NCBI GenBank assembly: GCA_017617335.1
Contig: JAFZWK010000035.1
Coordinates: 1 to 59,929, forward strand
Reading direction: 5' to 3'
DNA from: Bacteroidaceae bacterium
Lineage (GTDB): Bacteria > Bacteroidota > Bacteroidia > Bacteroidales > Bacteroidaceae
Length of the DNA stretch: 59,929 bases
Part shown: one piece after another, positions 21,710 to 49,802 of the stretch
How positions within the stretch are numbered: position 1 is the first letter of the stretch
Layout of the letters: each line of letters opens with the position of its first letter
Position numbers and translations under genes: made by a program
The notes under the pieces: generated by a model
Seen by the model: only the letters and a program-made list of their open reading frames with translations
What the model was told of the DNA's origin: nothing
Databases searched by the model: none

Positions 21710-21811
21710 GACACGTTGAAAGGGGAAAATCGACGTGTCGTCTCTGCGGTTTCGACACGTCAACTTTGTAAACTCGACACGTCGAAATCTCAAAGACAAC
21801 ACGTTGTCTTT
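21710..21811. repeat. 22-bp-periodic palindrome array, locus 1 (five units)
   Basis: Five 8-bp cores begin at 21710, 21732, 21754, 21776 and 21798, each exactly 22 bp apart: GACACGTT, GACGTGTC, GACACGTC, GACACGTC, AACACGTT. The arms are inverted (GAC/GTC or AAC/GTT) around an AC or GT centre. The last unit extends to 9-bp arms, AAAGACAAC and GTTGTCTTT. The 14-bp spacers differ. The array lies in the 770-bp gap between the BACON lipoprotein and GH51 genes. The rest of that gap holds the repeat at 21427-21579, a hairpin at 21889-21931 and AT-rich sequence. Confidence 0.85.
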
Positions 21812-21888
21812 TCATAGGAGAAAGAAGGATTGCTGTTGTTTAACACAACTAGTTAATAATCAGCTAATTATAAAAAAGAATCCTTTAC

Positions 21889-21931
21889 AAGGAAAGAGGT
21901 TGACCGAGAAACAGTCAATCCGTTTTTCCTT
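21889..21931. other. Long imperfect hairpin in the BACON-GH51 gap
   Basis: AAGGAAA (21889-21895) pairs with TTTCCTT (21925-21931), and GGTTGAC (21898-21904) pairs with GTCAATC (21914-21920) with one wobble. A 5-T run is part of the 3' side. It could terminate plus-strand transcripts leaving the lipoprotein gene, but it is 525 bp downstream and the T run falls within the stem, so I leave the role open. Confidence 0.4.
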
Positions 21932-22131
21932 ATCAAAGAAACATCTTCTGAAATCTTGACAAAACAATTTAGTGTTGGTTCCCTCACTTTGTTATTATCC
22001 TTAGTTTCTATCTCTTTCAGGATAGCTTAGTTACGGCTCAACATTATACATTGACCACGAATAATGTATAGTATCTGTTTTTATTGGTTCATTTTCATCT
22101 ATAATGCATGGATACAAGAGTCTGAGATTTC

Positions 22132-23922
22132 TCAGTACTCCACGCAAACTTTCATTGATTTGTCACCTGTCTGCACTACATAGATACCTGGAGATTGCTT
22201 CGCATTTTCATCGACTTTATATCCTGATGTTGTGTAGACATTGAAATTCTCTTCCCCTTCCACGTAAATCCGACCATCTATTACGTAGGGAAAAAGGGGC
22301 GTGGGGTTACCCAACACTTTTTCTGCTGTATCTTTTTCGAACAGGATCAAGACAGTTGCACATGGGTTAAGCGTGACTGTCGGGGAGGTTAGCTTCAGGG
22401 TAGAATTTTTTACCAGAGATCGGTCTTCTTCCGTATTTTCAGCACAAACATCATTGGCTGAAACCTGATAAGCAGAATTCATTTTATATCCATCAGGAAC
22501 CACGACGTTCACTTCCTGTTTTGTATCGTATGATCTGTTTACTATCGAAACCACCAAATGTTCTTCTTCATTCACTACAGCGGCACAATCCACGTAACAA
22601 CGATCCACTTTTTTTCCATCTTGGGAAGAGTCCGTATCACCCTCAATCTTCAGATTTTTTAATTCCAAATCCTTAATGCCTGGCCCTGTTACGTTCACAC
22701 CTACAGCACGACCTGTCATGAATTTACGGTAAAGGTTGTAGAGATAATAGCAGACCGATGGATAAGCATCTTGATTGCCCACTGTCTTTAAAAGACCATG
22801 CCCGTTCACGGGGAAAATATAATTAGCCATCGCAACATAGGGACTGGTTCGAATGAAAACATTCAGCATCCCCGCCATCGCAGCAGCATCGTAGAGCCGT
22901 CGGCCATCCTTTCGGGTGAAGGAGTAACTGCTACCATTGTAAACACTGTGCCTGCAGTTCCACTCGTCGATACTGAATCGGATTGGATTTGAGGTTCGTC
23001 CAACGGAAATGTTGTATGTGGTCAGGTCATTGATGAAGTGACGCAAGTTTGCCTCCACAAGTTCTGGAGCAAACAGGGTCTTTTCCGGATCCATCAATTG
23101 ATTGTCTTTTATTTTTGCAGTCATGTAGTAGTGCATGGTTAGGAAATCGAGGTCTTTACCACATTTTTCAACAACAACCTTATTCCAAGTTCCTGTATGT
23201 CCCACACCTAACAATTTAACTTCAGGATACATTCTCTTAATGGCGGAGGCGTAGAGAGTGAGTTGTTCGGCATATTCTGCTGCAGATTCACCCTTATGGA
23301 ATTTGTTACCGAGATAATTCTCATTGCCGATGCAAAAAAAGCGCACTCCATAGGGGACTGGATAACTGTTATTCCTTCGATAATCTCCCATAAGGGTTCC
23401 TGTCTCACCATTCACGTATTCCACCCAACTTAGGGCTTTTTCCACCGAATGGTCGTAAGTGTTGTTGTTGCCCATAGGGATATTGATGTAGGGTTCAATG
23501 TCGAGTTTTTTACACCAGTTCACAAACTCATCGGTACCGAAAGTGTAGTACTCAGTTCCGCCCCAAATGTGCTCGCTCACTGCAGTTCGCGTGGGACCAA
23601 CACCTTTTTGCCACTCATAGTCATAGATGGCAGTTCCAGCTGGCCAGCGCATTACAGGAATCCTCAGTCTCATCAATTGTTTTGTCACTGACAGATTTTC
23701 CGCACCCTTCTTATCCACCACACCGCCATAAATAACCGCATCGTTGCAATCCTCCAGCATCTGTCCGTATATCATTGAATCTATAGGGGCAAAATGTGAC
23801 AAATCAGATATTGAGACCACAGTTGTTGTTCCTGACACAGTTTGGTTGAAAACAGGTTTCTGGGAATTGATCATCAATGAACAAACAGAAAGGAGTGATG
23901 CGATAAAAAAGATTTTTTTCAT
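22132..23922 (-). CDS. Alpha-L-arabinofuranosidase, GH51, with C-terminal tail
   Basis: A 596-residue secreted enzyme with a signal peptide (MKKIFFIASLLSVCSLMINS). The GH51 barrel includes RWPAGTAIYDYEW near residue 92, acid/base Glu201 in CIGNEN, and nucleophile Glu320 in SIDEWN. It would release arabinose side chains from plant arabinan or arabinoxylan. A C-terminal beta-sandwich follows, and the last 60 residues (YTTSGYKVDE, then SPGIYVVQTGDKSMKV) resemble the short sorting-type tails of the other secreted proteins here. It lies 35 bp downstream of a truncated oxidoreductase on the same strand. Confidence 0.85.
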   Translation of the reverse strand: MKKIFFIASLLSVCSLMINSQKPVFNQTVSGTTTVVSISDLSHFAPIDSMIYGQMLEDCNDAVIYGGVVDKKGAENLSVTKQLMRLRIPVMRWPAGTAIYDYEWQKGVGPTRTAVSEHIWGGTEYYTFGTDEFVNWCKKLDIEPYINIPMGNNNTYDHSVEKALSWVEYVNGETGTLMGDYRRNNSYPVPYGVRFFCIGNENYLGNKFHKGESAAEYAEQLTLYASAIKRMYPEVKLLGVGHTGTWNKVVVEKCGKDLDFLTMHYYMTAKIKDNQLMDPEKTLFAPELVEANLRHFINDLTTYNISVGRTSNPIRFSIDEWNCRHSVYNGSSYSFTRKDGRRLYDAAAMAGMLNVFIRTSPYVAMANYIFPVNGHGLLKTVGNQDAYPSVCYYLYNLYRKFMTGRAVGVNVTGPGIKDLELKNLKIEGDTDSSQDGKKVDRCYVDCAAVVNEEEHLVVSIVNRSYDTKQEVNVVVPDGYKMNSAYQVSANDVCAENTEEDRSLVKNSTLKLTSPTVTLNPCATVLILFEKDTAEKVLGNPTPLFPYVIDGRIYVEGEENFNVYTTSGYKVDENAKQSPGIYVVQTGDKSMKVCVEY

Positions 23923-23957
23923 TTTTTCAATATTGTTTATGCAGGTCGTCAGGTATC

Positions 23958-24989
23958 CTATTTGTTGAAAGGGTTGTAATGGCTACCTTTCGATCCATCG
24001 CTCTTTTCTCGATCCAAAATCAGAGTCGGGTCTATAGTTTCTTCCAGATCTGAGTTTAAAAGGTATTGCCCTTGTAGGATCAACATCTCGCGCAGCATTT
24101 TTGTGTCCACATTTCTTGTTAAACCATCAGATTCTGCTGCCATTGCTGCTGCAGTTCCTGCGCCTTGTCCCATTGCCATACAGGTAGCCATCACTCGAAT
24201 AGATCCTGCAGCCATCTGATTAGCAGATATGCATCGTCCAGCCACCAACATGTTATCAAATTTTGTTGGAATCAGTGAGCGATAAGGAATTTCGTATACC
24301 ATCTTTCCTGAACCTGTGTAAATTTGCATTTTTCCCTGTCCTGGATGTATGTCAATAGCATAGGTGCCACATGAGATGCCATCTTCAAAAGACTTGCCTT
24401 CTAAGATGTCGCCTTCATCCAGTATATAGTCTCCAATAATATGTCGGCTTTCTCTCACTCCCACTCTAGCACCTGTTTCAACAATGTAGGAATTCTCGAA
24501 TCCTCCTACATGTTTTTTCATAAAACGGTATACTTCAACTACCTGTTTACGAAGTCTTATTTCTGCTTTTGTCAATTCCTTGGCATTCACACCTGATATT
24601 TTCTGTAGTCTGGTCACATTCATGGCGAATTGATGATGGGGAAGTTCATACATAAGTATTCTATTGGCAATTTCACTATCTAAATTTCCTTTAGCGATTT
24701 CCTCTTTTACAAGTTCGTTTAGTCCTAAGAATGCTATGCCCTTTTGGCTATCGATTTCTTTGTCAGTTGGATTATCCTTCAAAAGTTGTCTGTTCTTTTT
24801 CATCCAGGCTCGCAATTCAGAAGTATTCACGTCTCCAATTCTGAAAAACAAAGATACGGGTTGCACAATTCCTTTGCCATCACCGATAGTGAAATCGGCT
24901 CCTGCCTTTGCGGCAACATCACCGTCGCCTGTGCAATCAATAAAATGTTCCTGCTGGGCGGGCATATTTTGTTGACCTTTTAATTTCAA
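23958..24989 (-). pseudogene. 5'-truncated FAD-dependent oxidoreductase
   Basis: The 343 residues correspond to the middle and end of an FAD-dependent oxidoreductase of the FAD_oxidored type: CTGDGDVAAKAGAD near the start and CMAMGQGAGTAAAMA near the end. The N-terminal dinucleotide-binding motif (GxGxxG plus about 100 residues), essential for FAD binding, is absent and is not found in any frame in the 100 bp upstream. The longest frame must start at TTG (24989) or at the ATG at 24965. I read this as a remnant whose 5' end was deleted. It precedes the arabinofuranosidase on the same strand. A truncated but used protein cannot be excluded. Confidence 0.7.
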
Positions 24990-25097
24990 ATCAAAATTCT
25001 ATCTTCCTGCGCTTCGATGGGATTGAGACTATGACGGAATACACTCATATATTTGCAAGTCATAGGGTGCATTTGCAAAATTAAATGCCCGTTTCAC

Positions 25098-25736
25098 TCA
25101 AAGATAGAAATTGAAACCAATTCCCAGGATGTGTTGTGACGGGTGTTCCTTGTGCGTATAGTAAAGATAATATGCCTCCAACTGCATCCAACGGGTTATA
25201 TCGTAGTCGCAAGCCACATAGTGCCTCGTTTTTTTCCAATCTTTCCACGTGAAAACTTCTATGGCCAGATAGGGACTGAATCGACTGTGGGGAATAGCAT
25301 ACTGGGCTTTCAGACGGGAGCGCAGCTCATTCCCCTGTCTGTTTTCGGCTGGTATCCAGGAATGCAGGTAACGCTCACGGAGAGATAATTTGAGTGGTCC
25401 TTCCTTCAAGGTAGCCGTTACATCCATGATGGCTCTGTGCACTTGGCGGGAGGACTCTTTCACGAAGTCGTAGGCAACATCGGTCTTGAACCAGGGAAAA
25501 AGTTTAACGCCCAAGATTGTGCGAGTGTACCAGCAGTCAAAGTGGCGGTACTGGAGGTTGTCGTGCTCGAAGTAGAAACTTCCGAAGAAGGGGCTTCGAC
25601 CAAAATCATGGTTAATCTCCACGAATTCCCAGCCACCGAAGCGCCAGCCCTCGGGTTCACCTTGGGCCCGCAATTGTCTTGATGTTGCTGGCAGCAACGT
25701 GAGCAAAAGCAGGATTATAATACGAGGACGTAACAT
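25098..25736 (-). CDS. DUF2490-type outer-membrane beta-barrel protein
   Basis: Starting at the ATG at 25736 the protein has 212 residues, with a signal peptide (IIILLLLTLLPATSRQLRAQ) and a body rich in alternating aromatic and charged residues (YRHFDCWYTRTILG, SLRERYLHSW) that ends in the aromatic HILGIGFNFYL. This matches the DUF2490 family of small predicted outer-membrane barrels of unknown function. The longer frame (from 25763) adds nine residues before the signal peptide and is less likely. A strong hairpin lies just upstream. Confidence 0.75.
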   Translation of the reverse strand: MLRPRIIILLLLTLLPATSRQLRAQGEPEGWRFGGWEFVEINHDFGRSPFFGSFYFEHDNLQYRHFDCWYTRTILGVKLFPWFKTDVAYDFVKESSRQVHRAIMDVTATLKEGPLKLSLRERYLHSWIPAENRQGNELRSRLKAQYAIPHSRFSPYLAIEVFTWKDWKKTRHYVACDYDITRWMQLEAYYLYYTHKEHPSQHILGIGFNFYL

Positions 25737-25764
25737 GTGATATAATATTTGCTCGAACACCAAT

Positions 25765-25802
25765 CCGCCACCATTCAGGGGGAAACCCCTGCTTGGTGGC
25801 GG
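25765..25802. other. Strong two-part hairpin before the DUF2490 gene
   Basis: CCGCCACCA (25765-25773) pairs with TGGTGGCGG (25794-25802), and inside it CAGGGG (25776-25781) pairs with CCCCTG (25786-25791) around a GAAA tetraloop. No T run follows on either strand, so it is not a standard terminator. It sits between the end of the metallophosphoesterase gene and the DUF2490 start, where it could protect or regulate the downstream message. Confidence 0.6.
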
Positions 25803-25835
25803 TTAACAGGACAATATGAAGGAATGTTTTTAGCT

Positions 25836-25946
25836 TCTCATTGAACCAGAACCTTGATTATTAATCGAGATTCTTTCCGTTCGGCCTTTAACTCAAACAA
25901 GTTTGGTTTATGGCTCTCACTTAACCAGAACCTTATTTCCGTTAAT
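25836..25946. repeat. Partial duplication of a gene 3' end
   Basis: The segment at 25836-25865 repeats, with a few changes and gaps, 25915-25946, which encodes the last residues and stop of the metallophosphoesterase (shared core AACCAGAACCTT). The copies are about 79 bp apart. It looks like a degenerate second copy of the sorting-type tail region left after the stop codon. Confidence 0.5.
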
Positions 25947-28900
25947 GATGTAGAGACCCTTCGGGAGCTTGTCCTTTGGCGTGCTGATCTTTCTTCCCAT
26001 CAGGTCGTATATACCAGCAGGCATCTTCAAGGCGATAGGAATCTGCTTGATGCCAGTCGTCTCGACAGCACCCAGAGACTTAACCTGTAGGCCACCGATA
26101 CTTGTGTTCCAGTAGCGCAGTTCGGCAATGTCAATGGGGCCTTCCTCACCGTCCTCGTCGGCAAAGAGGTAGCACAATTGTTGCAGGGCCCATCTGCTGT
26201 TGGTTCCGTGGGTTCCATTAACCTTCACTCCGTCAAGGTAGATTCCAGTCATGGCGTTGCTGCTTACCACGAAGACAAGACGCTGCCACTGGTCCTGCAC
26301 AAATACATCATTGGAATAGTTCAAACCGCTCTGACGGATACCTATGGTCTTGTCTAAGGTAAAGAGTTCGCCGTCGCTGGTATTGGTTGGATCGGTCTGG
26401 ATGATCACATTGTAGCCCGACAATCTCTGGGGACGAATATCCATCATGAAGGTGAACGAGTTCTGGATATCGGACTCCTGATTGTGAGCCAACTGCAGGT
26501 AGCTGTCAAACGGTACGACGACTGCTCCGTTGTCTGCTGTGGGGCCTGCAATCGGAACAATACCTGCAGTTGCGGGGTCTTCCACTTCCACGGGGCCACC
26601 TGCTCCTCTCATGGCAGCACGGAGGATAGCCTCACCGGTGCCGGCCATCAGGTCATTGGGATTGTCGAAGGTCCATACGCTTACAGGATCTATGAAGGGC
26701 TCTTCATCCCATTCCTGTTCTACGCCGCCAAGGCTCTTCACCTGTTCGTCGGTGAGAGGAACGTCCCAGAAGCGTATCTCTGCCACGTCGTTGTATACTT
26801 CCTGGTTGTTTTCGTCAGCAAAGAGAAGTACTTCGGGATACATGCTCCACATATTGTTGGAGCTGGTGCTCTGTCCCACCTTGTCTCCATCAATATAGAC
26901 ACTGGCACAGCCGTCCTTTACGACATAGAGGATACGGTGCCAAATCATCTCCAGGAGTTCTCCGTGGTAGCCTAATCCGTTTGAGGCACGTCCAAGCATG
27001 CCCTTCTCGCTGACGAAGATTCCGGCATCAGTAGTATTCTTGATGTTTGCCTGATACAATGAGTTAGGCTGCTCCAAGGTGCTGGGACGGATGTCGAATA
27101 GGATGGCATAGTCCCTTAACTCAGCGATGCCTGTGTTGTTCGTCAGCCACAGATAGGAATCGGCACCAATGCCGATAGCTCCATTTCCAGGCATTGGACC
27201 TTCTTCGGCCGTGATGAAGGCAGTCTCGATATCGGTTATCTCGGGACCATTGCTCCCCTTGTATGCTGCCTGCAGGGTAGCTGTTCCCGTGCCGGCAAGC
27301 AAGTTGTTGGGATCATCGAATGTCCAGACGCCAGCTGGTTCAGGCATGTCTCCACCCAGCTTAACTTGTATCACAGGTATCTCAACAGGATCGAAGTTTT
27401 CTGTCCGTATAATGATGACACCCTCGCGACGATCTCCATCATTCAGAGGTTGGGCACGGAAGATGTAGTCCTTCTCTCCCTCGACAATCTCTATGTCAAG
27501 CGGTTCAATCCAGTCGGGTAACTCAAACGTGAAGGAAACGTTGGCATTGATGTTGATGGAGAAGTCGATCTTGTCAACAAGACGTACGTTGGGGGTTTGC
27601 ACCACGAAGAGTTCTTCCACATCGCTGTAGACATCGCCCAGTTTCTTTGCCATATCAGCACTGAACGGCACATCCCAGAAGCGGAGGGAGGCTAAGTTCA
27701 CGGTGCCTTCCTCGCCGTCTTCGTCGGCAAAGAGCAGAACCTCGTCGTTCTTGATACACTGATAACTTACGAAGCTACCGTATTCGCTCAACTTTTCACC
27801 GTTCACATAAAGTGTGGGACAGCCATCCTTCACCACAAAGAGGATGCGATACCAAACCTCTGTCTGGAAATCACCATTGTAACCTAGGTTGCCACCACGT
27901 CCCAGCTGGTTGTTCTTGAAGAAGAGGCCTGCATCGCTGGTGTTCGTAACATCGCACTGGAACAATGACTTGTAGCCACTCACGTCGTTAAGCATCACAT
28001 CATAGAGAATGGTGAAATTCCTCATTTCGGGATTTCCGGTACTTGCTTTGAGCCATAGGTAAGCATCCTTGGGTACCACAATGGCACCGTTCTCTTCCGT
28101 TGGTCCAGCAATGGCCTTAATGCCAGCTTCAGCTGGGTCGTATGTCATGGTGGGTCCGTCACCACCCTTGTATGCAGCGGTGATGTAGGCCATTGTATAG
28201 CCTTCTTCCTTCATAAGATCGTTGGGATCGTCAAAAGTCCACCAGCCCAATGGATCAGGTACTTCTTCTCCCACATATACCTGTTCCACGAGAATCTCCT
28301 GCGACTCTACTCCATCGCCCTTGACGATGATGACATCCTCGCGGCGACCAGAGAATTCCATTTCTTGGGCACGGAAGGTGTACTCGTGTCTTCCTTCGAA
28401 AGGAATTATATCTACACCCTCAATCCAGTCGGGCAACTCGAAGGTGACAGGTACATTGGCTTCAAGGGTCACTGTGAAGGTCGGGTCGTCCACCACCTTG
28501 ACGTTCGTGGTTATCAGGTTGATAAACGGTTCGTCCACAACAGGTTCCTTGCCGCAGCATTCCCTTATTTCATTGTCAGTGAGACTTCTTTCCCAGTAGG
28601 AAAATTCTGACATGTAGGTATCAGTCATTTCGTTGTCATCATCAGTAAGGACGTAGAAACCCCAAGGGTCAATCTCCCAACGGATGTCGCCAGCGCAATC
28701 AATGACCTTCTCGTCCTCAATATAGACATTAACTCGTCCGTTGCGGCAAACCATGAAGATGCGGTACCAAGTGTCATCCTTGATTTCCCCAAAATAGCCG
28801 CCCATGGCCCGCATGCCAATCGTGTTTTGGTAAACGAAGAGCTCACCGTCATTGCTGTTGCTCAAATTGGTCTGCCAAAAACCATTATAACTAACGGCAT

Positions 28901-34004: not shown

Positions 34005-34053
34005 CGTTGGTATGTTTTTTAGTTTGTTTATTGTTTTTACGATGTTTATGCTG

Positions 34054-34320: not shown

Positions 34321-34372
34321 AACACGTTGAAACCGTCGACACAACACGTTGTGTTTGCAAAGTCAACACGTT
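34321..34372. repeat. 22-bp-periodic palindrome array, locus 2 (three units)
   Basis: AACACGTT occurs at 34321, 34343 and 34365, exactly 22 bp apart. The second and third units extend to ACAACACGTTGTGT-like arms. The array lies about 100 bp upstream of the cobalamin riboswitch promoter, between the divergent M48 and TonB receptor genes. Confidence 0.85.
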
Positions 34373-34467
34373 GTGTTTTCCTCCTTCATCTATCTTGAAC
34401 TTGGGCGTTGATAGAGAAAAAAGATAAAATTTTGAAAGAAAAAGAATAATGTATCATAAAAAAACAG

Positions 34468-34475
34468 TATCTTTG
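34468..34475 (+). promoter_or_regulatory. -7 element of the riboswitch-controlled cobalamin operon
   Basis: TATCTTTG fits TAnnTTTG and would start transcription near 34482, immediately before the riboswitch. No TTTG is seen at the usual -33 distance. Confidence 0.6.
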
Positions 34476-34483
34476 CACTGGAT

Positions 34484-34690
34484 TTGGTAATGGAATCGTC
34501 CTTCGAGGATGAACTCCATGCAAGGGAATCAGGTGAAAGACCTGAGCTGTTCCTGCAGCTGTAATCCATTTATGGGAGTCGGCAAATGAGTCACTGCGCA
34601 AGCGGGAAGACGCCGATTCTAATGGAAAGCCAGAAGACCTGCCATTTCTGTTGAGAATAAAAAGGAGTTGCTCCCAGGATTTGGAGCCAT
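34484..34690 (+). promoter_or_regulatory. Cobalamin riboswitch and its expression platform
   Basis: The conserved cobalamin aptamer landmarks are present in order: GGGAATCAGGTG at 34524-34535, AGCTGTTCCTGCAGCTGTAA at 34545-34564, the CACTGCGCAAGCGGGAAG segment near 34592-34609, and the B12 box AGCCAGAAGACCTGCC at 34628-34643. Downstream, GGAG at 34664-34667 can pair with CTCC at 34671-34674, while GCTCC at 34670-34674 can instead pair with GGAGC at 34683-34687. These pairings exclude each other and lie just before the start codon at 34697, suggesting translational control. Cobalamin binding would lower receptor and perhaps operon expression. Confidence 0.92.
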
Positions 34691-38001: not shown

Positions 38002-39153
38002 ATGAGGAAGAGATTACTGCTTATATACCTTGCTGTTTTAGGTGTGATGTCTTGCGGAAAAAGAATGCCGAGGGAACATGTCACCTTAGCCGATGAATTG
38101 TTTCAGGAGCAGGATTCCGTCTTGGCTCATGCTGATGAATTCCCAGATACGGTTTCTTTTTTTTATGCGCGCGGGTTATGTGTGCGCTATGAACAGGATG
38201 GCATCCACGTGTCCATTAAGAATCCTGACCCCTCAGCTCATGGCAGTCGTACTGAAGAAATTCTAATCACGAAACCATCTAAACGGTTTATCTGTACCAC
38301 AGCTCTTCAATTGGGCAATTTTGAGGTACTGGGATTGGAGGATCGTATCGTAGGAATGAATTCGTTGCGCAACCTCTTTTCTCCTCGTATGAAGGAGCAG
38401 ATGCAGGATGGGCGTACTGTACAAATAGGCAAGGAAGGCAATTTCGACCTCGAGACCGTGATTGCTGCACAGCCCGATTACATCTTTGTGAGTGCTTCCA
38501 AACATGGTGGTTTCGAGGCGCTCAAGGAGTGTGGCATTCCCCTGATCTCTCACCATGGCTACAAGGAGACCAATCCGTTGGGGCAGGCTGAATGGATCAA
38601 ATTGATAGGTCTGCTGACAGGCGAGACTCGTAGAGCAAATGCTGTGTTTGCCGATATCGAGCGTAAGTATTTGGCCCTGAGAGACGAAGTGTTGAAGATG
38701 GATTCTACACAACTGCGCCCCTCCATCATCAGTGGTCGACAGATTCGTGATGGATGGTATATCGTGGGTGGACGAAGTTATATGGCTCAGATTTTCCATG
38801 ATGCAGGGGCTCAGTACATCATGTGCGACAACGAGGACTCTGGTGGCACCACGCTTGACTTTGAGGCTGTCTATGCTCAAAGCATTCATGCTGATTTCTG
38901 GCAAATCGATGGTGCCTTTGATGGGGATTTCACTTTGGAGCAGTTAGCTCAGGAGGATGAACGCTATACCACATTGGATGCTTATCGAAGAGGTCATGTG
39001 CTCTTCTGCAATTTCTCCCAGACTCCTTATCGTGAGCTGGCGGGTGTGCAGCCCCATCTGGTTCTGGCAGACTTCGTGAAGGCTATGCATCCTGAATTGC
39101 TGCCTCATTACATTCCTCAATACTACAAACTACTTAAGCATGAAGATCAGTAA
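38002..39153 (+). CDS. btuF: BtuF-like substrate-binding lipoprotein of a cobalamin/iron-type ABC importer
   Basis: A 383-residue lipoprotein (lipobox VMSC, Cys18) with the periplasmic-binding fold of the BtuF/FhuD family: FICTTALQLGNFEVLGLEDRIVG, then QPDYIFVSASKHGG, and a C-terminal lobe with PHLVLADFVKAMHPE. The context (TonB receptors, BtuC-like permease, corrin enzymes) supports cobalamin or cobinamide as ligand. Its last 14 bp overlap the second TonB receptor gene. The matching permease is at 47260, after the biosynthetic genes. Confidence 0.85.
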   Translation: MRKRLLLIYLAVLGVMSCGKRMPREHVTLADELFQEQDSVLAHADEFPDTVSFFYARGLCVRYEQDGIHVSIKNPDPSAHGSRTEEILITKPSKRFICTTALQLGNFEVLGLEDRIVGMNSLRNLFSPRMKEQMQDGRTVQIGKEGNFDLETVIAAQPDYIFVSASKHGGFEALKECGIPLISHHGYKETNPLGQAEWIKLIGLLTGETRRANAVFADIERKYLALRDEVLKMDSTQLRPSIISGRQIRDGWYIVGGRSYMAQIFHDAGAQYIMCDNEDSGGTTLDFEAVYAQSIHADFWQIDGAFDGDFTLEQLAQEDERYTTLDAYRRGHVLFCNFSQTPYRELAGVQPHLVLADFVKAMHPELLPHYIPQYYKLLKHEDQ

Positions 39154-41215
39154 AGTCCTGCTATGCGTCTTATTGGCCATGAAGGGTGGCTGCATCGTTG
39201 CACAAACAGCGGACTCTGTGCAGACGATTAACCTCAATCCTGTAGTGATTACGGGTACTGGGACGTATCACAAGGCCGATAATTCACCTGTGGCCGTGAG
39301 GGTTATATCAGCCAAGGAACTGCGCGATGTGGGAGCTACTGATTTGCAGGATGCCCTGACACGCTTGACCACCAATATCACCACTCACACCAACGGTATG
39401 GGTACCTTTGTCAACTTCAATGGAGTGAGCGATGATTACATCTTGATTCTTGAGAATGGAAAACGCGTGAGTGGGGACGATCGTTGGAGCCGCATGAATC
39501 TCAACAACATCAAGCGTATTGAGATATTCAGCGGAGCAGCCAGCGCGCTATATGGAAGCGATGCCATTGCTGGCGTGATCAATATCATTACTGACGACAG
39601 CAAGGATAGTGTAAATGCAAACGTGTATACCAAAGTCATGAATCATGGTCGCTTGGAACATGACATTAATGTCGATGTGAACGCAGGTCGATTCTCCAGC
39701 CAAACGTCCTATGACTACCGCCAAGCCGATAATTGGCAGGTCAATCATTATCAGGCTTTCGACGAGGATGGCGAGCAAGTGCTGAAGTTGACAGGACGTC
39801 CCATGTCAACAGGCTTTCACAGCCATAACGTGAGCGAGAAAATGGAGTGGAAGTTTGATGATAAATGGTCTGCCTACATTCGTGGAAATTACTATGACAA
39901 CACGACACAACGCCCTCAGAGTGCTACCTATTTCACTCAGTCAAAGGATAAGACAACAGGAGGATACAAGTATAGTGAGCGTCAGGCATACACGTATGAC
40001 CTTCATCACAAGTCTTATGTTTACGGAGGTGGAGCCCGCTGGCAACCCTCCAGTAGAGTTCACGTCTATCTGGATGCCTATAGCGACAACTTCTCATCAC
40101 ACTACGACTATTGGCAAACTGCAGGAAAGGAGGCCTACGACGAGACTCGCAAGCGGACTCATTATACCAACGAGACCTTGCGTGGAATCTTTCGCCTGAC
40201 CAGTTGGAACAAGTTGTCTGCAGGGACAGAAATGGTGCAGGAATCCCTGACGAGCCAAAGCGACAATATCGATGGCGAGCATACAAATACCTACAATATC
40301 TTTGCCCAGGATGAAGTACAGATTATGAAGGGACTGGAGGCAGTCGTCGGACTCCGCTACACCTACAATGACAACTTTGGTTCCGACCTGACACCCAATG
40401 CAGGCCTTTTCTATCACGTCGCAGGTTTCCGCTTCAGAGCCAGCTATGCTGGAGGATACCGCACTCCCACGCTCTCGCAACTCTATGGAACAGATCAAGC
40501 CAAGACAGCTGCGAGATATACAATCAACAACGCTGAGCTCACGCCTGAGAAGAACGACTTCTGGAACTTCAACGCTGAGTACAGCAATCATTGGATGAGC
40601 CTGAGCGTGAGCGGATTCATCAATAAGATTCGCGACATGATCAACTATCGAACGCTTTCTCAGCAGGAGATAGAAGCCTCGACCTACCTGACCCAAATCT
40701 ACGACGAGGGATGGACCACCATTCGCCAGCGTGACAATATTGATCGAGCCACCTTGCGTGGCGTGAGTACAAATGTGAAGTTTCTGCTTCCCTATGGATT
40801 TGCATTTGGTGGAGGCTACACCTTAACACGTTCACTTGCCAGTTTCAACACGTTGAGTCAGTCAACTCAACACGTTGTCTTTACGGAGACTCCTGTTGAC
40901 AAATCCGTTCGCGACGTGGGAAACGTGAATGCCACATGGGATCGCGGATGGGGCAATTATCATCTCAATGTCTGTTTGAACGGGCACATGCAAGGTCGCC
41001 GTTACAGCAGCACGTATGGCTATGCTGATGGTTACAGCCAATGGGACCTTTCCACTCGCCATACGGTTTATCTGAAGCAGGTAACCCTGGAGCCTGGCAT
41101 TGGTGTGGAAAATATTTTCAACAAGCGCGACACCTCGTATTGGAGTTCCAACTTTTCCACTATCAATCCTGGGCGTTCGCTCTATGTAAGTTTGACACTG
41201 AAATTTCATGACTGA
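39140..41215 (+). CDS. Second TonB-dependent receptor, BtuB-like
   Basis: A 691-residue outer-membrane receptor related in layout to the riboswitch-controlled one: a TonB-box-like start (QTINLNPVVITGTGTYHKAD), a plug (ILILENGKRVSGD, SGAASALYGSDAIAGVINI) and a barrel ending LYVSLTLKFHD. Substrate is probably a corrinoid, as it lies between btuF and cobJ with overlaps at both ends. Residues 563-579 (SLASF through QHVVF) are encoded by a 22-bp-periodic repeat array, which looks inserted into an extracellular-loop region without breaking the frame. Confidence 0.88.
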   Translation: MKISKVLLCVLLAMKGGCIVAQTADSVQTINLNPVVITGTGTYHKADNSPVAVRVISAKELRDVGATDLQDALTRLTTNITTHTNGMGTFVNFNGVSDDYILILENGKRVSGDDRWSRMNLNNIKRIEIFSGAASALYGSDAIAGVINIITDDSKDSVNANVYTKVMNHGRLEHDINVDVNAGRFSSQTSYDYRQADNWQVNHYQAFDEDGEQVLKLTGRPMSTGFHSHNVSEKMEWKFDDKWSAYIRGNYYDNTTQRPQSATYFTQSKDKTTGGYKYSERQAYTYDLHHKSYVYGGGARWQPSSRVHVYLDAYSDNFSSHYDYWQTAGKEAYDETRKRTHYTNETLRGIFRLTSWNKLSAGTEMVQESLTSQSDNIDGEHTNTYNIFAQDEVQIMKGLEAVVGLRYTYNDNFGSDLTPNAGLFYHVAGFRFRASYAGGYRTPTLSQLYGTDQAKTAARYTINNAELTPEKNDFWNFNAEYSNHWMSLSVSGFINKIRDMINYRTLSQQEIEASTYLTQIYDEGWTTIRQRDNIDRATLRGVSTNVKFLLPYGFAFGGGYTLTRSLASFNTLSQSTQHVVFTETPVDKSVRDVGNVNATWDRGWGNYHLNVCLNGHMQGRRYSSTYGYADGYSQWDLSTRHTVYLKQVTLEPGIGVENIFNKRDTSYWSSNFSTINPGRSLYVSLTLKFHD
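40825..40876. repeat. 22-bp-periodic palindrome array, locus 3 (three units, inside a gene)
   Basis: AACACGTT occurs at 40825, 40847 and 40869, exactly 22 bp apart, within the second TonB receptor gene. Because 22 is not a multiple of 3, each copy is read in a different frame (as part of LTRS, FNTL and QHVV), but three units make 66 bp, which keeps the frame. Confidence 0.85.
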
Positions 41216-43782: not shown

Positions 43783-45548
43783 TTTTAATAGTATACGTCA
43801 CTGAGGTTGGCCGCCAGTTGGCTCAACGGATACTTCAGGAATTACCCTCTTGTCACATGATGCCTGTCAAGGCTTTTTCAGCCGAGAATTTTCGCAACAG
43901 CGAAGGAATCATCTTCATTGGCGCCTTAGGTATCTGTGTCCGTACGATAGTCCCTTACATAAAGGCCAAACAGAACGATCCTGCCGTGCTATGTGTGGAC
44001 AGTGGTGGTAACTATGTCATTAGTGTGTTGAGCGGTCATGTGGGGGGAGCCAACGAGTTGACTAAACGGATCTCACACGTTCTGGGATGCCAACCTGTGA
44101 TTACTACTCAGAGCGACAATCAGGGGCTGTGGGCTCTCGACCTGTTGGCTGAGCAATATGGATGGCAGGAGGAACATAGTGGAGGCAGGATTAATCACAT
44201 CATCTTCCATTATGTAGGCAAGAAGCCTACAGTCCTGAAGTTGGATGTCCGAGGGGATAAGGGGGCGCAGTATATGGAGCGTACCCGTCAGTCTCATGTC
44301 AGTCTATATGGCGGGGAAGTCATTCCTGAAGAGAGTCTACTTGTTGCCGTCAGTCCCTATTTCCGTCCCGCCGAGGAGAATTTCAAGAGCACTCTTGTCT
44401 ATCATCCTCCTGTCTTGCATCTGGGTGTGGGATGTGCTCATGATTGTGACCCTTCCGATTTGCCTCTTCTCATTCGTGAGAAGCTTCACGAACATAATCT
44501 CAGTGAGAAGAGCATTGCCACCATCGATACCATTCCCCTGAAAGCTGACGAGCCTCTTATGCAAGCTCTTCAGATGGCTTTCCCATGGGCACGTTTCGTG
44601 GTTCATCTTAACAAGGAGTTAGAAGGCATTACAGTTCCTAATCCCAGCGAATATGCCCAGAAATATATAGGTATTCCCAGTGTGAGTGAGGCGTGTGCTC
44701 TGACGTATGGTCCCCTGTTGATGGAAAAAGAGAAAATTATGGGGAGGTGCACGATAGCTGTCTCTATCTCTCAGGAAAAGGCTCTTGGAGGGCATGTCGA
44801 AATTGTGGGAGCTGGTCCTGGCGACCCAGAGTTGGTGAGTCTTCGTGGCATTCGTTTCCTGCAACAGGCTGACCTCATCCTTTATGCTGGTTCTCTGGTT
44901 CCAGAGGAACTGACACGTTATGCGAAGGCAGGTTGCACAGTCCGCTCCTCAGCCTCTATGGATTTGGAGGAACAATTTGCCCTGATGAAGGAGTTTTATG
45001 ACAAAGGTCTGTTGGTGGTGCGTCTCCACACAGGTGATCCCTGTATCTATGGTGCCATTCAGGAGCAGATGGCCTATTTCGACCAGCATGGTATGCATTA
45101 CCACATCACTCCAGGAATCAGCAGCTTTTTGGCTGCGGCGGCTGAGTTGCGCAGTCAGTTTACTATTCCTGAAAAGTGTCAGACCATCATCCTGACACGT
45201 GGTGAGGGGCGTACTTTGATGCCTGAACTCGAAAAGCTTCATCTCTTGGCTGCTCACCAGAGTACTATGTGTATCTTTCTCAGCGCTTCGTTGGCCCAGC
45301 AGGTTCAGGATGAACTTCTCGCTGGCGGCTATCCTCCCGAAACTCCTGTAGCGGCCTGCTACAAGCTCACATGGCCTGACCAGCAGATATACAGAGGTCA
45401 GCTACAGAATCTGGCGCAGATCATTGCCGATCATCATCTCACTCTGACCACCATGATCGTGGTGGGTGAGGCGATTGACAACCGCGAAGGACTGAGCCGA
45501 CTCTACGACGGGCATTTCACTCACATGTTCAGAAAAGGTCGACCATGA
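43779..45548 (+). CDS. cbiG-cobM: CbiG-CobM fusion: cobalt-precorrin-5A hydrolase and precorrin-4 C11-methyltransferase
   Basis: A 589-residue bifunctional protein. Residues 1-330 are CbiG, which opens the delta-lactone and releases acetaldehyde (GALGICVRTIVPYI, VLSGHVGGANELT). Residues about 338-589 are the C11-methyltransferase CobM/CbiF (EIVGAGPGDPELVSL at 341-355; RLHTGDPCIYGA). CbiG belongs to the early-cobalt pathway, so the route here is anaerobic. Overlaps of 4 bp join it to both neighbours. Confidence 0.92.
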   Translation: MILIVYVTEVGRQLAQRILQELPSCHMMPVKAFSAENFRNSEGIIFIGALGICVRTIVPYIKAKQNDPAVLCVDSGGNYVISVLSGHVGGANELTKRISHVLGCQPVITTQSDNQGLWALDLLAEQYGWQEEHSGGRINHIIFHYVGKKPTVLKLDVRGDKGAQYMERTRQSHVSLYGGEVIPEESLLVAVSPYFRPAEENFKSTLVYHPPVLHLGVGCAHDCDPSDLPLLIREKLHEHNLSEKSIATIDTIPLKADEPLMQALQMAFPWARFVVHLNKELEGITVPNPSEYAQKYIGIPSVSEACALTYGPLLMEKEKIMGRCTIAVSISQEKALGGHVEIVGAGPGDPELVSLRGIRFLQQADLILYAGSLVPEELTRYAKAGCTVRSSASMDLEEQFALMKEFYDKGLLVVRLHTGDPCIYGAIQEQMAYFDQHGMHYHITPGISSFLAAAAELRSQFTIPEKCQTIILTRGEGRTLMPELEKLHLLAAHQSTMCIFLSASLAQQVQDELLAGGYPPETPVAACYKLTWPDQQIYRGQLQNLAQIIADHHLTLTTMIVVGEAIDNREGLSRLYDGHFTHMFRKGRP

Positions 45549-47278
45549 TACTCATCTTTGGAGGTACAACGGAAGGGCGCATGGCCGTGGAGGTGTGTGA
45601 AGTTGCAGGTAACCCCTTCTACTATTCTACTAAGGGAGGTTCTCAGGAGGTTCCTCTCCATTATGGCGTGCGTCTTACAGGAGCCTTGACTGCCGATGGG
45701 ATACGTCAGTTCGTTGCTGAGCACGAGGTGCGCTGTATCGTAGATGCTGCCCATCCCTTTGCTCAAGAGCTTCATGCCTGCGTTGCTGATGCGGGCCTAC
45801 CTGTCATCCGACTCGAACGCACCTTTTGCCACCATTATTCAGAAATGAATTATTGCAAGGACTTTACAGATGCCGTGACTCGTCTCAACGTCTCGCCTAC
45901 CAAGTGCCTGTTGGCCCTGTCTGGAGTGAACACCATCCCCCAATTACGCGACTACTGGCAGCATCATCGCACCTTCTTCCGTATCCTGCGCAGACCTGAA
46001 AGTATCCACTTGGCTTGCCAGAATCGGTTTCCCTCGCAGAATCTCATCTACTATGCTGATGAAATGTCCCTTCCGACCAGAGAGCAGGAAAAGGAACTCA
46101 TGCAGCAGGTGGGTTGCGATGCAATCCTGACCAAGGAAAGCGGCCGAAGCGGAGGTTTCGAGGCCAAGGTAGAGGCAGCCCTGCAATTGGGTTTGCAAGT
46201 CTACGTGGTGAGTCGTCCTCAGTTGCCTGCCGAGTGGATCTATGTGACAGGGCAACATGGGTTGCGTCGAGCCATCGAACGTCTGGTGCCTGACTTCTTT
46301 CCGCTTCGCACGGGTTTTACTACAGGGGCTTGCGCTACGGCAGCAGTCAAGGCAGCCCTCATCTCCCTTCTCTCTGACGAGCAACCTGACGAGGTTCATT
46401 TCTCCCTGCCTGATGGTGAGGTAATGGCCATCCCAGTGGAAGTCAGTCGTAAAGGTGTGGCTATGGTTGTGAAGGATTTTAGCGACGACCCTGACGTGAC
46501 ACGTGGTTGCCGTATCACGGCTCAGGTGGAATGGGGACACGATGGAATCCGCTTCCTGCGAGGTAATGGGGTGGGACGCGTCACGTTGCCAGGCTTGGGT
46601 ATTCCTGTAGGGGAGCCTGCCATCAATCCTACACCTCGTCAGATGATCATTCAGGAGGTACGGAATCTCACAGATTCCGATGTGGACATCACTCTTTCTG
46701 TGGAGGATGGTGAGCAGCTTGCCCTGAAGACTTTCAATCCTCGTGTGGGCGTGCTGGATGGAATCAGCATCATCGGCACCTCGGGCATCGTCTCTCCGCT
46801 CAGTAACGAGGCTTTTGTCCAAAGCATCGAGCGCGAATTGCAGGTAGCGCGAGCCATCGGATGCCGACAGATTGGTTTTGCTTCTGGCCGACGTGGAGAA
46901 GAGGCGCTTCATGCCACAGAGCCTGACCTGCGCGTGATTCATTATGGCAACCTCATTGGTCGCAGCCTTCAGATGGCTCACGAGCAAGGTTTCCAGCGTG
47001 CTGTGGTGGGCATCATGATAGGCAAGGCTGTCAAGTTGGCAGAAGGGAACCTCGACACCCATTCGCACAAAGTAGTGATGAACAAGGACTTCCTGCGTCA
47101 AGTGGCTGGACCCGTTGACGCTGCCAAGATAGACGGAATCACCCTGGCTCGCGAGCTCTGGCAGGTCATGCCTCCCTCTTTCTTTCAGAAAATCAGGGAA
47201 CTTTGCTATCAACATTGTAGAACCGTATTCCCTTCAGGGGAACTTGAAATCCGACTTATATGCGACAATCCAGCATGA
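45545..47278 (+). CDS. cobK-cbiD: CobK-CbiD fusion: precorrin-6A reductase and C1-methyltransferase
   Basis: A 577-residue bifunctional enzyme. Residues 1-245 are the NADPH-dependent CobK/CbiJ reductase (ILIFGGTTEGR at 2-12; IVDAAHPFAQE near 65-75). From residue 251 it is CbiD, the cobalt-precorrin-5B C1-methyltransferase (RTGFTTGACATAAVKAAL, 255-272). The pairing of these consecutive or near-consecutive steps follows the fusion pattern of this cluster. Its end overlaps the permease gene by 19 bp. Confidence 0.92.
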   Translation: MILIFGGTTEGRMAVEVCEVAGNPFYYSTKGGSQEVPLHYGVRLTGALTADGIRQFVAEHEVRCIVDAAHPFAQELHACVADAGLPVIRLERTFCHHYSEMNYCKDFTDAVTRLNVSPTKCLLALSGVNTIPQLRDYWQHHRTFFRILRRPESIHLACQNRFPSQNLIYYADEMSLPTREQEKELMQQVGCDAILTKESGRSGGFEAKVEAALQLGLQVYVVSRPQLPAEWIYVTGQHGLRRAIERLVPDFFPLRTGFTTGACATAAVKAALISLLSDEQPDEVHFSLPDGEVMAIPVEVSRKGVAMVVKDFSDDPDVTRGCRITAQVEWGHDGIRFLRGNGVGRVTLPGLGIPVGEPAINPTPRQMIIQEVRNLTDSDVDITLSVEDGEQLALKTFNPRVGVLDGISIIGTSGIVSPLSNEAFVQSIERELQVARAIGCRQIGFASGRRGEEALHATEPDLRVIHYGNLIGRSLQMAHEQGFQRAVVGIMIGKAVKLAEGNLDTHSHKVVMNKDFLRQVAGPVDAAKIDGITLARELWQVMPPSFFQKIRELCYQHCRTVFPSGELEIRLICDNPA

Positions 47279-48273
47279 TGATTCTGCTCATTCTGAGCAT
47301 TCCTTTTTTTGCCCTTCTCAATCTGACGATAGGCTCAGTAGAGATTCCTCTCAATGAGGTGTTCAGCATTCTCGCTGGTCAGGGCTCAGATTCTCAGGTG
47401 TGGATCAACATAGTGTTGCGCACTCGCCTCCCTCAGACGCTCACGGCCATTGCCTGTGGGTCAGGTCTCGCGGTGGCAGGTTTGGAGATGCAGACCGTTT
47501 TCCATAACCCGTTGGCTGGCCCCTCTGTATTGGGTATCTCAAGTGCCGCCAGTTTGGGCGTGGCTTTTGTCGTCCTGTTGAATGGAACCGTTGGAGGAGG
47601 CATCATGACTCAATTCGGCTTCTTCGGCAACACGGCTCTCACGTTGGCTGCCATGATGGGAGCTGTGGGAGTCATGTCGATCATCGTGTTCCTCTCCCAG
47701 CGTGTGCGCAACAACGTCACGCTGCTCATTGTGGGCGTGCTGATAGGCTACATTGCATCAGCCATCATCGGAGTGCTCAAGTATTTCAGCAGCGAGGAGG
47801 ATATCCGCGCATACGTCATTTGGGGATTGGGTAGTTTTGCTCGAGTGACGGGTGGTCAAGTGTATGTCTTCGTGGCGTTGATGGCCGTTATCCTACCCTT
47901 CACGCTTCTTCTGGTCAAGCCTCTCAACATGTTGCTTCTGGGTGAGCGATACGCTGTCAACCTGGGGCTCAACCTTCGTCGTGCCCGCCTTTTCATCATC
48001 CTCTCGGCCAGCGTGCTGATAGCCATCGTCACGGCCTATTGCGGCCCCATCATGTTCCTTGGTCTGGCCGTTCCCCACATTTGCCGAGGTCTCTTTCACA
48101 CGTCCGATCATCGCCTCTTGCTTCCTGGTTCGCTCTTCTGTGGTGCCTCGCTGGCTCTCGTCTGCAATCTCGTTGCCCGCCTGCCAGGCTTTGAGGGTGC
48201 GCTACCCATCAACTCTGTAACTTCGCTCATCGGAGCCCCTGTGGCCCTTTATGTCCTGCTTAGAAAGAAATGA
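47260..48273 (+). CDS. btuC: BtuC-like permease of a cobalamin/iron-siderophore ABC importer
   Basis: A 337-residue FecCD-family permease with about ten membrane segments. It carries typical motifs: LRTRLPQTLTAIACGSGLAVAG, NPLAGPSVLGISSAASLG and the late FLGLAVPHICRGLF. Placed among corrin genes and matching the BtuF-like protein upstream, it probably imports cobalamin or cobinamide. The ATPase (BtuD) is not adjacent and must be encoded elsewhere. It overlaps the next gene by 4 bp. Confidence 0.9.
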   Translation: MRQSSMMILLILSIPFFALLNLTIGSVEIPLNEVFSILAGQGSDSQVWINIVLRTRLPQTLTAIACGSGLAVAGLEMQTVFHNPLAGPSVLGISSAASLGVAFVVLLNGTVGGGIMTQFGFFGNTALTLAAMMGAVGVMSIIVFLSQRVRNNVTLLIVGVLIGYIASAIIGVLKYFSSEEDIRAYVIWGLGSFARVTGGQVYVFVALMAVILPFTLLLVKPLNMLLLGERYAVNLGLNLRRARLFIILSASVLIAIVTAYCGPIMFLGLAVPHICRGLFHTSDHRLLLPGSLFCGASLALVCNLVARLPGFEGALPINSVTSLIGAPVALYVLLRKK

Positions 48274-48941
48274 AACATATCCCTTCCCTGCTCATCGGAG
48301 CAGCATCGTCCAATAGTGGAAAGACCACAATCACCATGGGGTTACAGCGTGCTCTCGTGCGCAGGGGTCTTCAGGTGCAGCCTTTCAAATGCGGGCCTGA
48401 CTACATCGATCCCATTTTCCATCAGATGGCCACTGGTCGCGAGTCCGTCAATCTCGATACCTTCCTCTCTTCGGCCGACCATATCCGCCAGCTCTTCCAT
48501 CAGTATGCAAAGGGGGCCGACGTGTGCATTATCGAAGGTGTAATGGGCCTCTTCGACGGCTACTCCGCTTCCAAGGGGAGCAGCGCCGAGATAGCCATGC
48601 TGCTCGATGTGCCTGTCGTGCTGGTCGTAAATGCCCGCTCTATGGCTTACAGCGCAGCGCCACTTCTCTACGGCTACCTCCATTTCCAGCCTCGCTTGCG
48701 CATCGCGGGTGTTATCTTCAATATGGTGGGGTCAAGCCAACACGTTGAGTCGCTGAAGTTGACGTGTCAGGATGTGGGAGTCGACTGCTTGGGGTTTCTG
48801 CCTCGAAATCCTCGTCTTTCCATCCCCAGCCGTCATTTGGGTCTGACCGTCTCTGAGCAGCAGGGAATGGAGCAGCTCATCTGTCTGGCTGCCGATGAAG
48901 TTGAGCAGCATGTGGAACTGGATAAAATCCTTGCCTTATGA
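48270..48941 (+). CDS. cbiA: Cobyrinate a,c-diamide synthase, N-terminal synthetase half
   Basis: The 223 residues match the first half of CbiA/CobB, which amidates the a and c side chains of cobyrinate using ATP and glutamine. The P-loop GAASSNSGKTT is at residues 10-20, with CGPDYIDPIFH and IIEGVMGLFDG following. CbiA is usually about 430-460 residues in one chain; here it ends after DKILAL at a TGA that overlaps the ATG of the next gene, which holds the glutaminase half. A two-unit repeat array is embedded near the end. Both halves look intact, so a two-subunit enzyme or a recent frameshift are both possible. Confidence 0.85.
   Translation: MKHIPSLLIGAASSNSGKTTITMGLQRALVRRGLQVQPFKCGPDYIDPIFHQMATGRESVNLDTFLSSADHIRQLFHQYAKGADVCIIEGVMGLFDGYSASKGSSAEIAMLLDVPVVLVVNARSMAYSAAPLLYGYLHFQPRLRIAGVIFNMVGSSQHVESLKLTCQDVGVDCLGFLPRNPRLSIPSRHLGLTVSEQQGMEQLICLAADEVEQHVELDKILAL
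48739..48768. repeat. 22-bp-periodic palindrome array, locus 4 (two units, inside cbiA)
   Basis: AACACGTT at 48739 and GACGTGTC at 48761 begin exactly 22 bp apart and have opposite centre orientation. They lie in the coding sequence of the cbiA N-terminal half, encoding SQHVESLKLTCQ. The spacer starts GAGTC, as does one spacer at locus 3. Confidence 0.55.
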
Positions 48942-49522
48942 ATATCTGTGTAGCTCGCGACGAGGCTTTCAATTTCACTTATCGCGCCAATTTGGATTCG
49001 CTGGCTCGTCTGGGACAGGTCAGCTTCTTCTCACCGCTTCGCGACTCTCGCCTGCCTGCCTGCTCTCTACTTTATCTGCCTGGCGGCTATCCTGAGTTAT
49101 ATGCCCAGCAACTTGCGGCCAACGACTCCATGCGATGCAGTATCCGCGATTTTGCTCTCTCTAATGGACATGTTTATGCTGAGTGCGGAGGTTTTATGTA
49201 TTTGTGTCAGGAGATAGATGGCCAGCCTATGTGCGGAGTGTTTCCTCTGCGGGCCACCATGCAGGATGCGCGTCTTCACTTGGGTTATCGCCAGATGGAG
49301 TGGCAGGGTCGGCGACTTCGCGGTCATGAATTCCACTATAGTAGGGTGTGTCCCTCCACGTTGCCTGCCGATGTTACCGCTCTCGTTCTCCAGCAGACAG
49401 CCAGTGGTCAGCCTGTTGATACTCCACTCTATCTCTTTCATCATGTCATAGCTGGCTACACCCATTGGTATTGGGCAGAAGGGGACGTTCCCTTCCCTTT
49501 CTTTCCTGACTTGTTGATGTAA
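48938..49522 (+). CDS. cbiA: Cobyrinate a,c-diamide synthase, C-terminal glutaminase half
   Basis: These 194 residues are the second half of CbiA: the linking motif ICVARDEAFNFTY at 3-15, the class-I-like (GATase-3) domain with nucleophile Cys83 in YAECGGFMYL, and a catalytic-type His in HEFHYS near 130-135. It would supply ammonia from glutamine to the synthetase half. The ATGA overlap with the first half allows coupled translation. No further corrin gene follows; the next 570 bp are non-coding. Confidence 0.85.
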   Translation: MNICVARDEAFNFTYRANLDSLARLGQVSFFSPLRDSRLPACSLLYLPGGYPELYAQQLAANDSMRCSIRDFALSNGHVYAECGGFMYLCQEIDGQPMCGVFPLRATMQDARLHLGYRQMEWQGRRLRGHEFHYSRVCPSTLPADVTALVLQQTASGQPVDTPLYLFHHVIAGYTHWYWAEGDVPFPFFPDLLM

Positions 49523-49728
49523 TGGGAAAGATGTAAAACTGAAAGCAGAAAAGGGATGTTCACCCTTGCAGCCCTTTGATAAGGAAAAGACGAAAGTTTG
49601 TGTGTGTCTTTAAGGGCCGAAATAAGTTCAGAAACCCCTCTCCTAGGGAGGTTCAGGGATACTTGGATTCCATTTTTACTCTCACTTCTTTTGGACGGAA
49701 ACAGGGAAACAGATGCGACCTCAGACAC

Positions 49729-49802
49729 AACGTGTTGAAACCTCAAAGATAACGTGTTGAAACCTTAAAGACAACGTGTTGTGTTGACGATTTCAACGTT
49801 TA
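49729..49802. repeat. 22-bp-periodic palindrome array, locus 5 (three units plus one degenerate)
   Basis: AACGTGTT occurs at 49729, 49751 and 49773, exactly 22 bp apart, with a decayed copy (AACGTTTA) at 49795. All have the GT centre, opposite to loci 2 and 3. The first two 14-bp spacers are nearly identical (GAAACCTCAAAGAT and GAAACCTTAAAGAC). The array lies in the 570-bp gap after cbiA; the rest of the gap is AT-rich and shows no gene or clear terminator. Confidence 0.85.

Follow-up and report, generated by a model that had tools for sequence, protein, structure and literature searches.

A 59,929 nt stretch of a Bacteroidaceae genome (assembly GCA_017617335.1, contig JAFZWK010000035.1; hereafter the window) contains five clusters of a short interrupted palindrome, RAC(AC/GT)GTY, in which successive cores start exactly 22 bp apart, raising the question of whether these phased arrays are a genuine element of the chromosome and, if so, of what kind. 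A preliminary description of the window had reported loci of five, three, three, two and three cores at this spacing, with AC or GT at the centre of each, together with one decayed copy in phase after the fifth; all of these are present in the sequence (Table 1).

Number and phasing of the cores

Two of the checks suggested in that description, a comparison with shuffled sequence and a histogram of the distances between cores, were run, and arrays phased at 22 bp are confirmed as a real, genome-wide feature. The window has 24 RAC(AC/GT)GTY cores, whereas 200 shuffles of it under a first-order Markov model gave 5.9 +/- 2.4, and the 20 pairs of cores no more than 120 bp apart are separated by 22 bp (11 pairs), 44 bp (six), 66 bp (two) or 88 bp (one), with no other distance represented; no pair distance occurred more than once in any one shuffle. 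The histogram for 435 kb of the source assembly, G000, with the window included, is dominated by multiples of 22 bp, having 80, 50, 26 and seven pairs at 22, 44, 66 and 88 bp respectively and, up to 300 bp, five pairs whose distance is no multiple of 22. Across this 2.37 Mb assembly, which is 62% complete and divided between 73 contigs, a 10-mer form of the core, CAACACGTTG, is found 325 times, as against four times for its reversed control. These copies are split between the strands (162 forward and 163 reverse), and hence show no polarity. Two of the five loci in the window, at 40825-40876 and 48739-48768, are inside protein coding genes.

Table 1. Phased arrays of the window, with positions counted from its first letter (ORF, open reading frame)
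Feature	Position	Strand	Composition	Setting
Array 1	21710..21805	.	five cores, centres AC, GT, AC, AC, AC, 22 bp	between convergent ORFs
Array 2	34321..34372	.	three AC cores, 22 bp	between divergent ORFs
Array 3	40825..40876	.	three AC cores, 22 bp	within TonB-dependent receptor gene 39140-41215
Array 4	48739..48768	.	two cores (AC, GT), 22 bp	within cobB-like (CbiA) gene 48270-48941
Array 5	49729..49780	.	three GT cores, 22 bp	~206 bp behind GATase_3 gene ending 49522
Decayed copy	49795..49802	.	AACGTTTA, in phase	adjoins array 5

Two further features of the window lie beside arrays. The stretch 34459-34600, in the interval separating array 2 from the TonB receptor gene (34697), resembles a cobalamin riboswitch. 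Next to array 1, at 21430-21585, is a separate pair of inverted stretches, one ACACTCTACACC-like and the other GGTGTAGAGTGT-like, which are unrelated to the 22 bp core.

Lineages and their dialects

More than 40 copies of the core were detected in three of 301 genomes of the family, namely G000 itself (325), its congener G060 (474) and G030 (65), with at most 36 in any other; in an order-level sample of 344 genomes including G000, no other genome exceeded 27. A scan of genome contigs for the motif returned at least 85 stretches. Among the matches listed were RGIG2783 from goat omasum (G060/G301), a Prevotellaceae metagenome-assembled genome (MAG) with 296 copies (G302/G411), the rumen MAGs RGIG9746 (G030/G303, 65 copies) and RGIG8271 (G304, 25 copies), and 'uncultured Bacteroides sp.' E20 bin320 (G306), with 125 copies. 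The paired identifiers are judged to denote single genomes from their equal counts and, for G060 and G301 (RGIG2783), equal places.

Arrays with the same period are found in other sequence dialects. In G114, belonging to another genus, they take the form TTTC[AT]ACRYGT[AT]GAAA, and in G306 they consist of NACRYGTN cores with GC-rich spacers; in the latter genome ACRYGT pairs number 53 at 22 bp, 37 at 44 bp and 20 at 66 bp, with at most three at every other distance. Hence the phasing is common to these lineages, whilst the cores and spacers are lineage-specific. In the following, arrays were called in the Prevotella clade from at least two strict RAC(AC/GT)GTY cores in phase, and in G306 from at least three of the looser NACRYGTN cores in phase; gene calls are crude longest-ORF calls.

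The full paired motif was present in none of the viral contigs. A looser pattern matched 11 of them, all lacking the family spacers, and these matches are taken as chance; a match in Nocardioides (L053) was set aside as likely to be the same. Two short contigs filed under other MAGs, L051 and L097, carry arrays in the Prevotella clade dialect; as the genomes concerned are otherwise poor in cores, these contigs have probably been mis-binned. In genomes poor in arrays or low in copies of the core, inspection by eye around 11 arrays showed no gene that they share, and the neighbours of the longest arrays, of nine and seven cores, likewise appeared by eye to be ordinary genes.

Structure of the arrays

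G000 and G060 together yielded 89 arrays in 1.23 Mb, spanning two (12 arrays), three (31), four (34) or five (12) positions. Of the 46 arrays in 396 kb of G306, 43 have exactly four positions. Those CAACNNGTTG sites in G000 that have an in-phase neighbour are centred on AC (42) or GT (37), with three others and no instance of AT or GC, whereas AC, AT, GC and GT are all used in G306. The spacers have a dyad of their own, GWNWYYGCRRWNWC, positioned 11 bp from that of the core, and the flanks adjoining the cores are of two types, GTTGAAA and GTTGTCT. Units tend to be arranged head-to-tail, since two GTTGAAA flanks seldom face one another, whether across a spacer (8/243 distinct spacers) or across a core (4/177 internal cores).

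In the Prevotella clade the ends of arrays lean towards the inverted pair AAAAGACAAC...GTTGTCTTTT, and in G306 towards TATA.GGGC.TTTG..CGC. One unit beyond the array, the in-phase letters are still partly retained (mean score 3.08 over 96 positions, against 2.03 off phase). Spacers differ between the arrays of one genome, which are thus not copies of a single master sequence. Two G306 arrays on contig C52 (L233:343-416 and L233:2258-2331) lie 1.9 kb apart and have a near-identical 34 bp left flank, with different cores and spacers; they perhaps diverged after a duplication.

Position and spacing along the chromosome

ORFs of at least 200 aa clearly enclose eight of the 65 arrays, each of which has two or three cores; of the 57 outside such ORFs, 53 have three to five. 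The idea that coding arrays make up for a lack of gaps nearby is not supported, as these arrays are not unusually far from intergenic gaps. Arrays often lie close behind genes: distances to gene ends were no more than 94 bp in 23/30 cases for 3' ends and 2/18 for 5' ends in G000, in 14/23 and 6/19 respectively in G301, and in 8/12 and 2/10 in G306. The 45 classed intergenic arrays of G000 and G301 include 13 in convergent and five in divergent gaps, classes of gap that account for approximately 14% and 28% respectively of all intergenic bases.

The arrays are also more evenly spaced than expected. The 74 gaps between the 89 arrays of G000 and G060 have a mean of 12.1 kb, a median of 10.5 kb and a coefficient of variation (CV) of 0.599, compared with 0.928 for uniform and 0.880 for random intergenic placement; in G306, where 46 arrays give 40 gaps with a mean of 7.0 kb, the CV is 0.502, compared with 0.922 and 0.887. 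None of 4,000 trials was as regular in either case. An earlier look at the spacing pointed in the same direction, as did a later, partly independent set of G000 and G060 contigs (21 gaps, CV 0.487 against 0.888, P 0.0015), which were chosen for having a known site and overlap the previous data over the initial 60 kb of contig C38 of G060 and in parts of C64 and C29; a corresponding later set for G306 had two gaps and was uninformative.

On G306 contig C83 (L317-L320), which has a long stretch free of arrays, the G+C content of the first 50 kb is 0.40-0.46, as against 0.54-0.56 for the rest of the contig, yet these 50 kb carry housekeeping-type genes, including those for a class I tRNA synthetase, HSP90 and DHDPS. 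This contig is either chimeric or includes a region that is kept free of arrays.

Conservation and origin

Aligned stretches of G000, G060 and G302 are mostly 81-90% identical, with a mean of 81.7% over 91 kb of G000-G060 blocks. Across six orthologous pairs of arrays having equal numbers of units (two of the eight pairs listed, with unequal numbers, being left out), the outer core letters are identical at 127/132 positions, the centres at 18/22 and the spacers at 128/224; all four changes at centres come from one pair (C5 16045 / L058), the flanks of which can hardly be aligned. Six G000 arrays fall inside aligned G060 blocks, five of them within 6 bp of the matching array and the sixth, in cobB, at 363 bp from one within that gene. 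When the comparison is started from G060, six of seven arrays have a match in G000. Intergenic arrays gain and lose units in steps of 22 bp between relatives.

The two coding arrays of the window were compared with their orthologues. The array region of the TonB receptor gene aligns without gaps to all 27 out-group orthologues, from genomes that, in the 13 counted, have between 1 and 15 cores. Amongst the three array-bearing species identity is 100% in the cores, 75% in the spacers and 85% in the flanks, whereas against the out-groups the corresponding values are 47%, 42% and 62%. In cobB, G000 has AACACGTT and GACGTGTC 22 bp apart, whilst at another place in the gene G060 and G302 have two copies of GACACGTT, separated by 44 bp; neither of the two aligned out-groups has a pair of this kind, G110 having one lone GACACGTT elsewhere. 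Here too the array regions align without a gap. Hence the TonB and cobB arrays were written into existing coding sequence, as they are ungapped relative to relatives that lack them. The retention of cores amid fast-changing spacers, these two origins without change of length and the over-regular spacing along contigs all point to function.

Interpretation

The balance of these observations tips slightly towards the arrays being phased docking sites at which a single DNA-binding protein, assembled as several dimers, organises the chromosome, or nucleoid. Dimers of this protein would line up next to one another along one face of the double-stranded helix, with 22 bp providing two turns for each, four to an array in G306 and mostly three to five in the clade of G000; the sites would recur at roughly regular intervals (means of 7 and 12 kb), often just behind the 3' ends of genes, and could act as markers in organising the chromosome, where the protein might, for instance, wrap DNA, tether loops or set the bounds of supercoil domains. 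We infer protein binding, a multi-dimer particle and an organising role alike from patterns in the DNA: side-by-side dimers because the palindrome repeats at two turns with the core letters held and the spacers free, a particle of defined size because the count in G306 is fixed at four, and organisation, as a better fit than the regulation of genes, termination by itself or a mobile repeat, because of the even spacing in two dialect groups, the placement behind genes and the absence of polarity.

The interpretation offered in the preliminary description is thereby partly supported. Its suggestions of a cooperative protein-binding array and of a nucleoid-organising site are both supported by the exact helical phasing, the kept cores with changing spacers and the over-regular spacing within contigs, with binding itself putative. 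Its other suggestion, a mobile or expanding repeat, is borne out in that unit number shifts in 22 bp steps between relatives, but not in that two coding arrays arose without any change in length and that no Y1/RAYT transposase was detected in the six array-bearing genomes tested.

Several observations weigh against the docking-site explanation. Most genus mates have no such excess of cores, and the array system is therefore not essential to the genus. The number of units in the Prevotella clade runs from two to five, and once reaches nine, so that a fixed four-dimer particle fails there. Amongst those G000 arrays that could be placed on G060, an array was present at the matching place for 6/12, the others being mostly at points of broken synteny, and one coding array, near L132:10100 and absent from G000, coincides with a 33 bp alignment gap. 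In G306, 8/19 arrays are within crude ORF calls, and coding arrays are not unusually distant from intergenic gaps. The even spacing, computed within contigs of draft genomes, is a tendency and not a strict ruler, with array-free stretches of ~69 kb on G306 contig C83 and of 45 kb at the start of contig C38 in G060. Finally, no binding protein was found, the counts of AsnC/Lrp and ParB family members failing to separate array-rich from array-poor genomes.

Two candidates for that protein were set aside. An Lrp/AsnC octamer, for which two or three gene copies are present in all 18 genomes, array-rich or not, is retained as an analogy only, and no phased cores were present in 30 AsnC loci of 3.2 kb. 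A G306 array (C78:53258-53331) is followed after ~360 bp by an AsnC domain (53692), which may be chance because arrays are dense in that genome, and a single site in G114 (C8:72919-72934) is ~430 bp from an AsnC-family gene. A ParB/Noc paralogue was the other: 16 of the 18 genomes have one match, and extra matches occur only in two array-poor genomes. A two-core array on G000 contig C11 (L136:10021-10050) is ~130 bp upstream of a gene, 10187-10657, that appears by eye to encode an HU-type DNA-binding protein.

REP/RAYT elements, mobile insertion and RNA hairpins all fit the data worse than phased binding sites. The view that the arrays are boundaries of transcription units, at which a bound protein array or the hairpin with a T-run open to many of them halts RNA polymerase behind genes in both directions, is favoured by their closeness to gene 3' ends, the excess in convergent gaps with a deficit in divergent ones, and the A/T-rich inverted ends. 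RNA folding was assessed for 14 arrays, a sample from which window array 4 was left out, and ten, again in favour of this view, have z scores of -2.65 or below; a further two score -1.33 and -1.05. Neither the array in TonB (+0.05) nor array 5 of the window (-0.03) folds better than shuffles, hence an RNA hairpin does not seem to be the property conserved in all arrays. As a stop in any of the 8/65 arrays inside ORFs of at least 200 aa would also cut the message, and as this explanation does not predict spacing more even than random intergenic placement, we regard it as unlikely. Slightly less likely again are mobile or self-spreading interspersed palindromes resembling REPs (repetitive extragenic palindromes) and BIMEs (bacterial interspersed mosaic elements), settling behind genes because little damage is done there. 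Such a repeat would leave many copies, a sporadic distribution, mixed orientation, nearness to 3' ends, the 22 bp steps and the 33 bp gap, all of which are seen; yet the Y1/RAYT transposase (PF01797) is absent from G000, G301, G302, G303, G306 and G307, one of which is 97% complete, with matches in 5/9 array-poor genomes, and the TonB and cobB origins, the even spacing, the positional agreement of 5/6 arrays in aligned blocks and the lack of a master spacer all weigh against it.

Strong sites for DNA gyrase, which would wrap phased, bendable DNA behind genes where positive supercoils gather, seem more doubtful still. The dyads are phased at 11 and 22 bp over ~90-140 bp, they lie behind genes, their spacing is near the size of a supercoil domain, and, in the accessible part of the source, E. 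coli gyrase is described as having an extended motif with phased 10 bp G/C variation and as cutting BIME-2 (PMC6379681). The cores, however, are base-specific and retained letter for letter, the Prevotella clade has no constant number of units, and the central spacers of 40 G306 arrays match the outer ones in composition, so that no cleavage motif stands out at the centre. That sites pile up under a genome-wide drive serving no local purpose, for instance a DNA-uptake preference or a methyltransferase or restriction motif (the core contains ACRYGT), is highly improbable: such a drive would account for sites arising in coding and non-coding DNA in either orientation, for lineage dialects and for absence from viral contigs, and has a parallel in cyanobacterial HIP1, a dispersed palindrome that the part of PMC4390886 available links to methyltransferases, but it leaves the exact phasing, four-core arrays and even spacing unexplained.

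A more specific form of the docking-site explanation, held tentatively and as something short of probable, is that multi-dimer particles on phased sites ~7-12 kb apart constitute a chromosome ruler, with the boundaries of loops or supercoil domains written in the DNA. Conserved genes could also receive such sites, whose positions within one gene may differ slightly between sister species, as in cobB; the sites would be at high density in G000 and its relatives and, in a separate dialect, in G306, with a few hundred arrays per genome by extrapolation. Whether ~10 kb supercoil domains in bacteria have fixed, sequence-encoded borders is, to our knowledge, an open question. The spacing of the arrays, which is of supercoil-domain order, their exact phasing and their lineage dialects make it testable, and were the ruler correct, chromosome-wide sites would be able to rewrite conserved genes such as cobB. 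For comparison, the E. coli chromosome is given 400-500 supercoiled domains in the accessible part of PMC3820752.

Comparison with known systems

The element falls within the definition of no known class tested. No description of it was found in searches of an open-access library, and the accessible part of PMC5771137 contains no 22 bp repeat.

Lrp/AsnC octamer sites and plasmid iterons both comprise several palindromic or repeated sites about two helix turns apart that are bound side by side. The arrays differ in being chromosome-wide instead of confined to one promoter or origin, and no link with AsnC gene number was found; whereas iterons form one cluster beside a rep gene, 89 arrays are present in 1.23 Mb of two genomes. 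We know of no base-specific core at gyrase sites or BIME-2 comparable with that of the arrays. Strong gyrase sites and the BIME-2 elements of E. coli are, on the available part of the source, the nearest functional comparison, having phased DNA over ~100 bp, a position behind genes and a proposed part in genome organisation (PMC6379681); the arrays are set apart by their invariant core, the lack of any central cleavage motif seen and a variable number of units. HIP1 is also a short palindrome highly repeated through the genome (PMC4390886, in part), but the cores described here are phased and their arrays evenly spaced, and the accessible part of that source mentions no phased arrays.

REPs and BIMEs with RAYT transposases are, as far as the part of PMC2817692 available describes them, grouped and dispersed palindromes in more than 100 copies, thought to bind proteins and to function in chromosome organisation and termination. 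The arrays resemble them in having grouped palindromic units in mixed AC and GT orientation, in being lineage-specific and in lying mostly outside ORFs of at least 200 aa (57/65). They differ in their exact 22 bp phasing, 8-10 bp core, even spacing and lack of a detected Y1/RAYT, and in that two coding arrays, ungapped in TonB and cobB, arose with their genes unchanged in length, although one further coding array has a 33 bp gap. The matS site of E. coli, bound by MatP, is 13 bp long and occurs 23 times in 800 kb, according to the accessible part of PMC3330122. Whereas matS sites are single, the arrays group two to five cores in phase (four in G306) and are present in far more copies; both are short, sequence-specific sites distributed over much of a chromosome, here in coding DNA as well, for which an architectural role is proposed.

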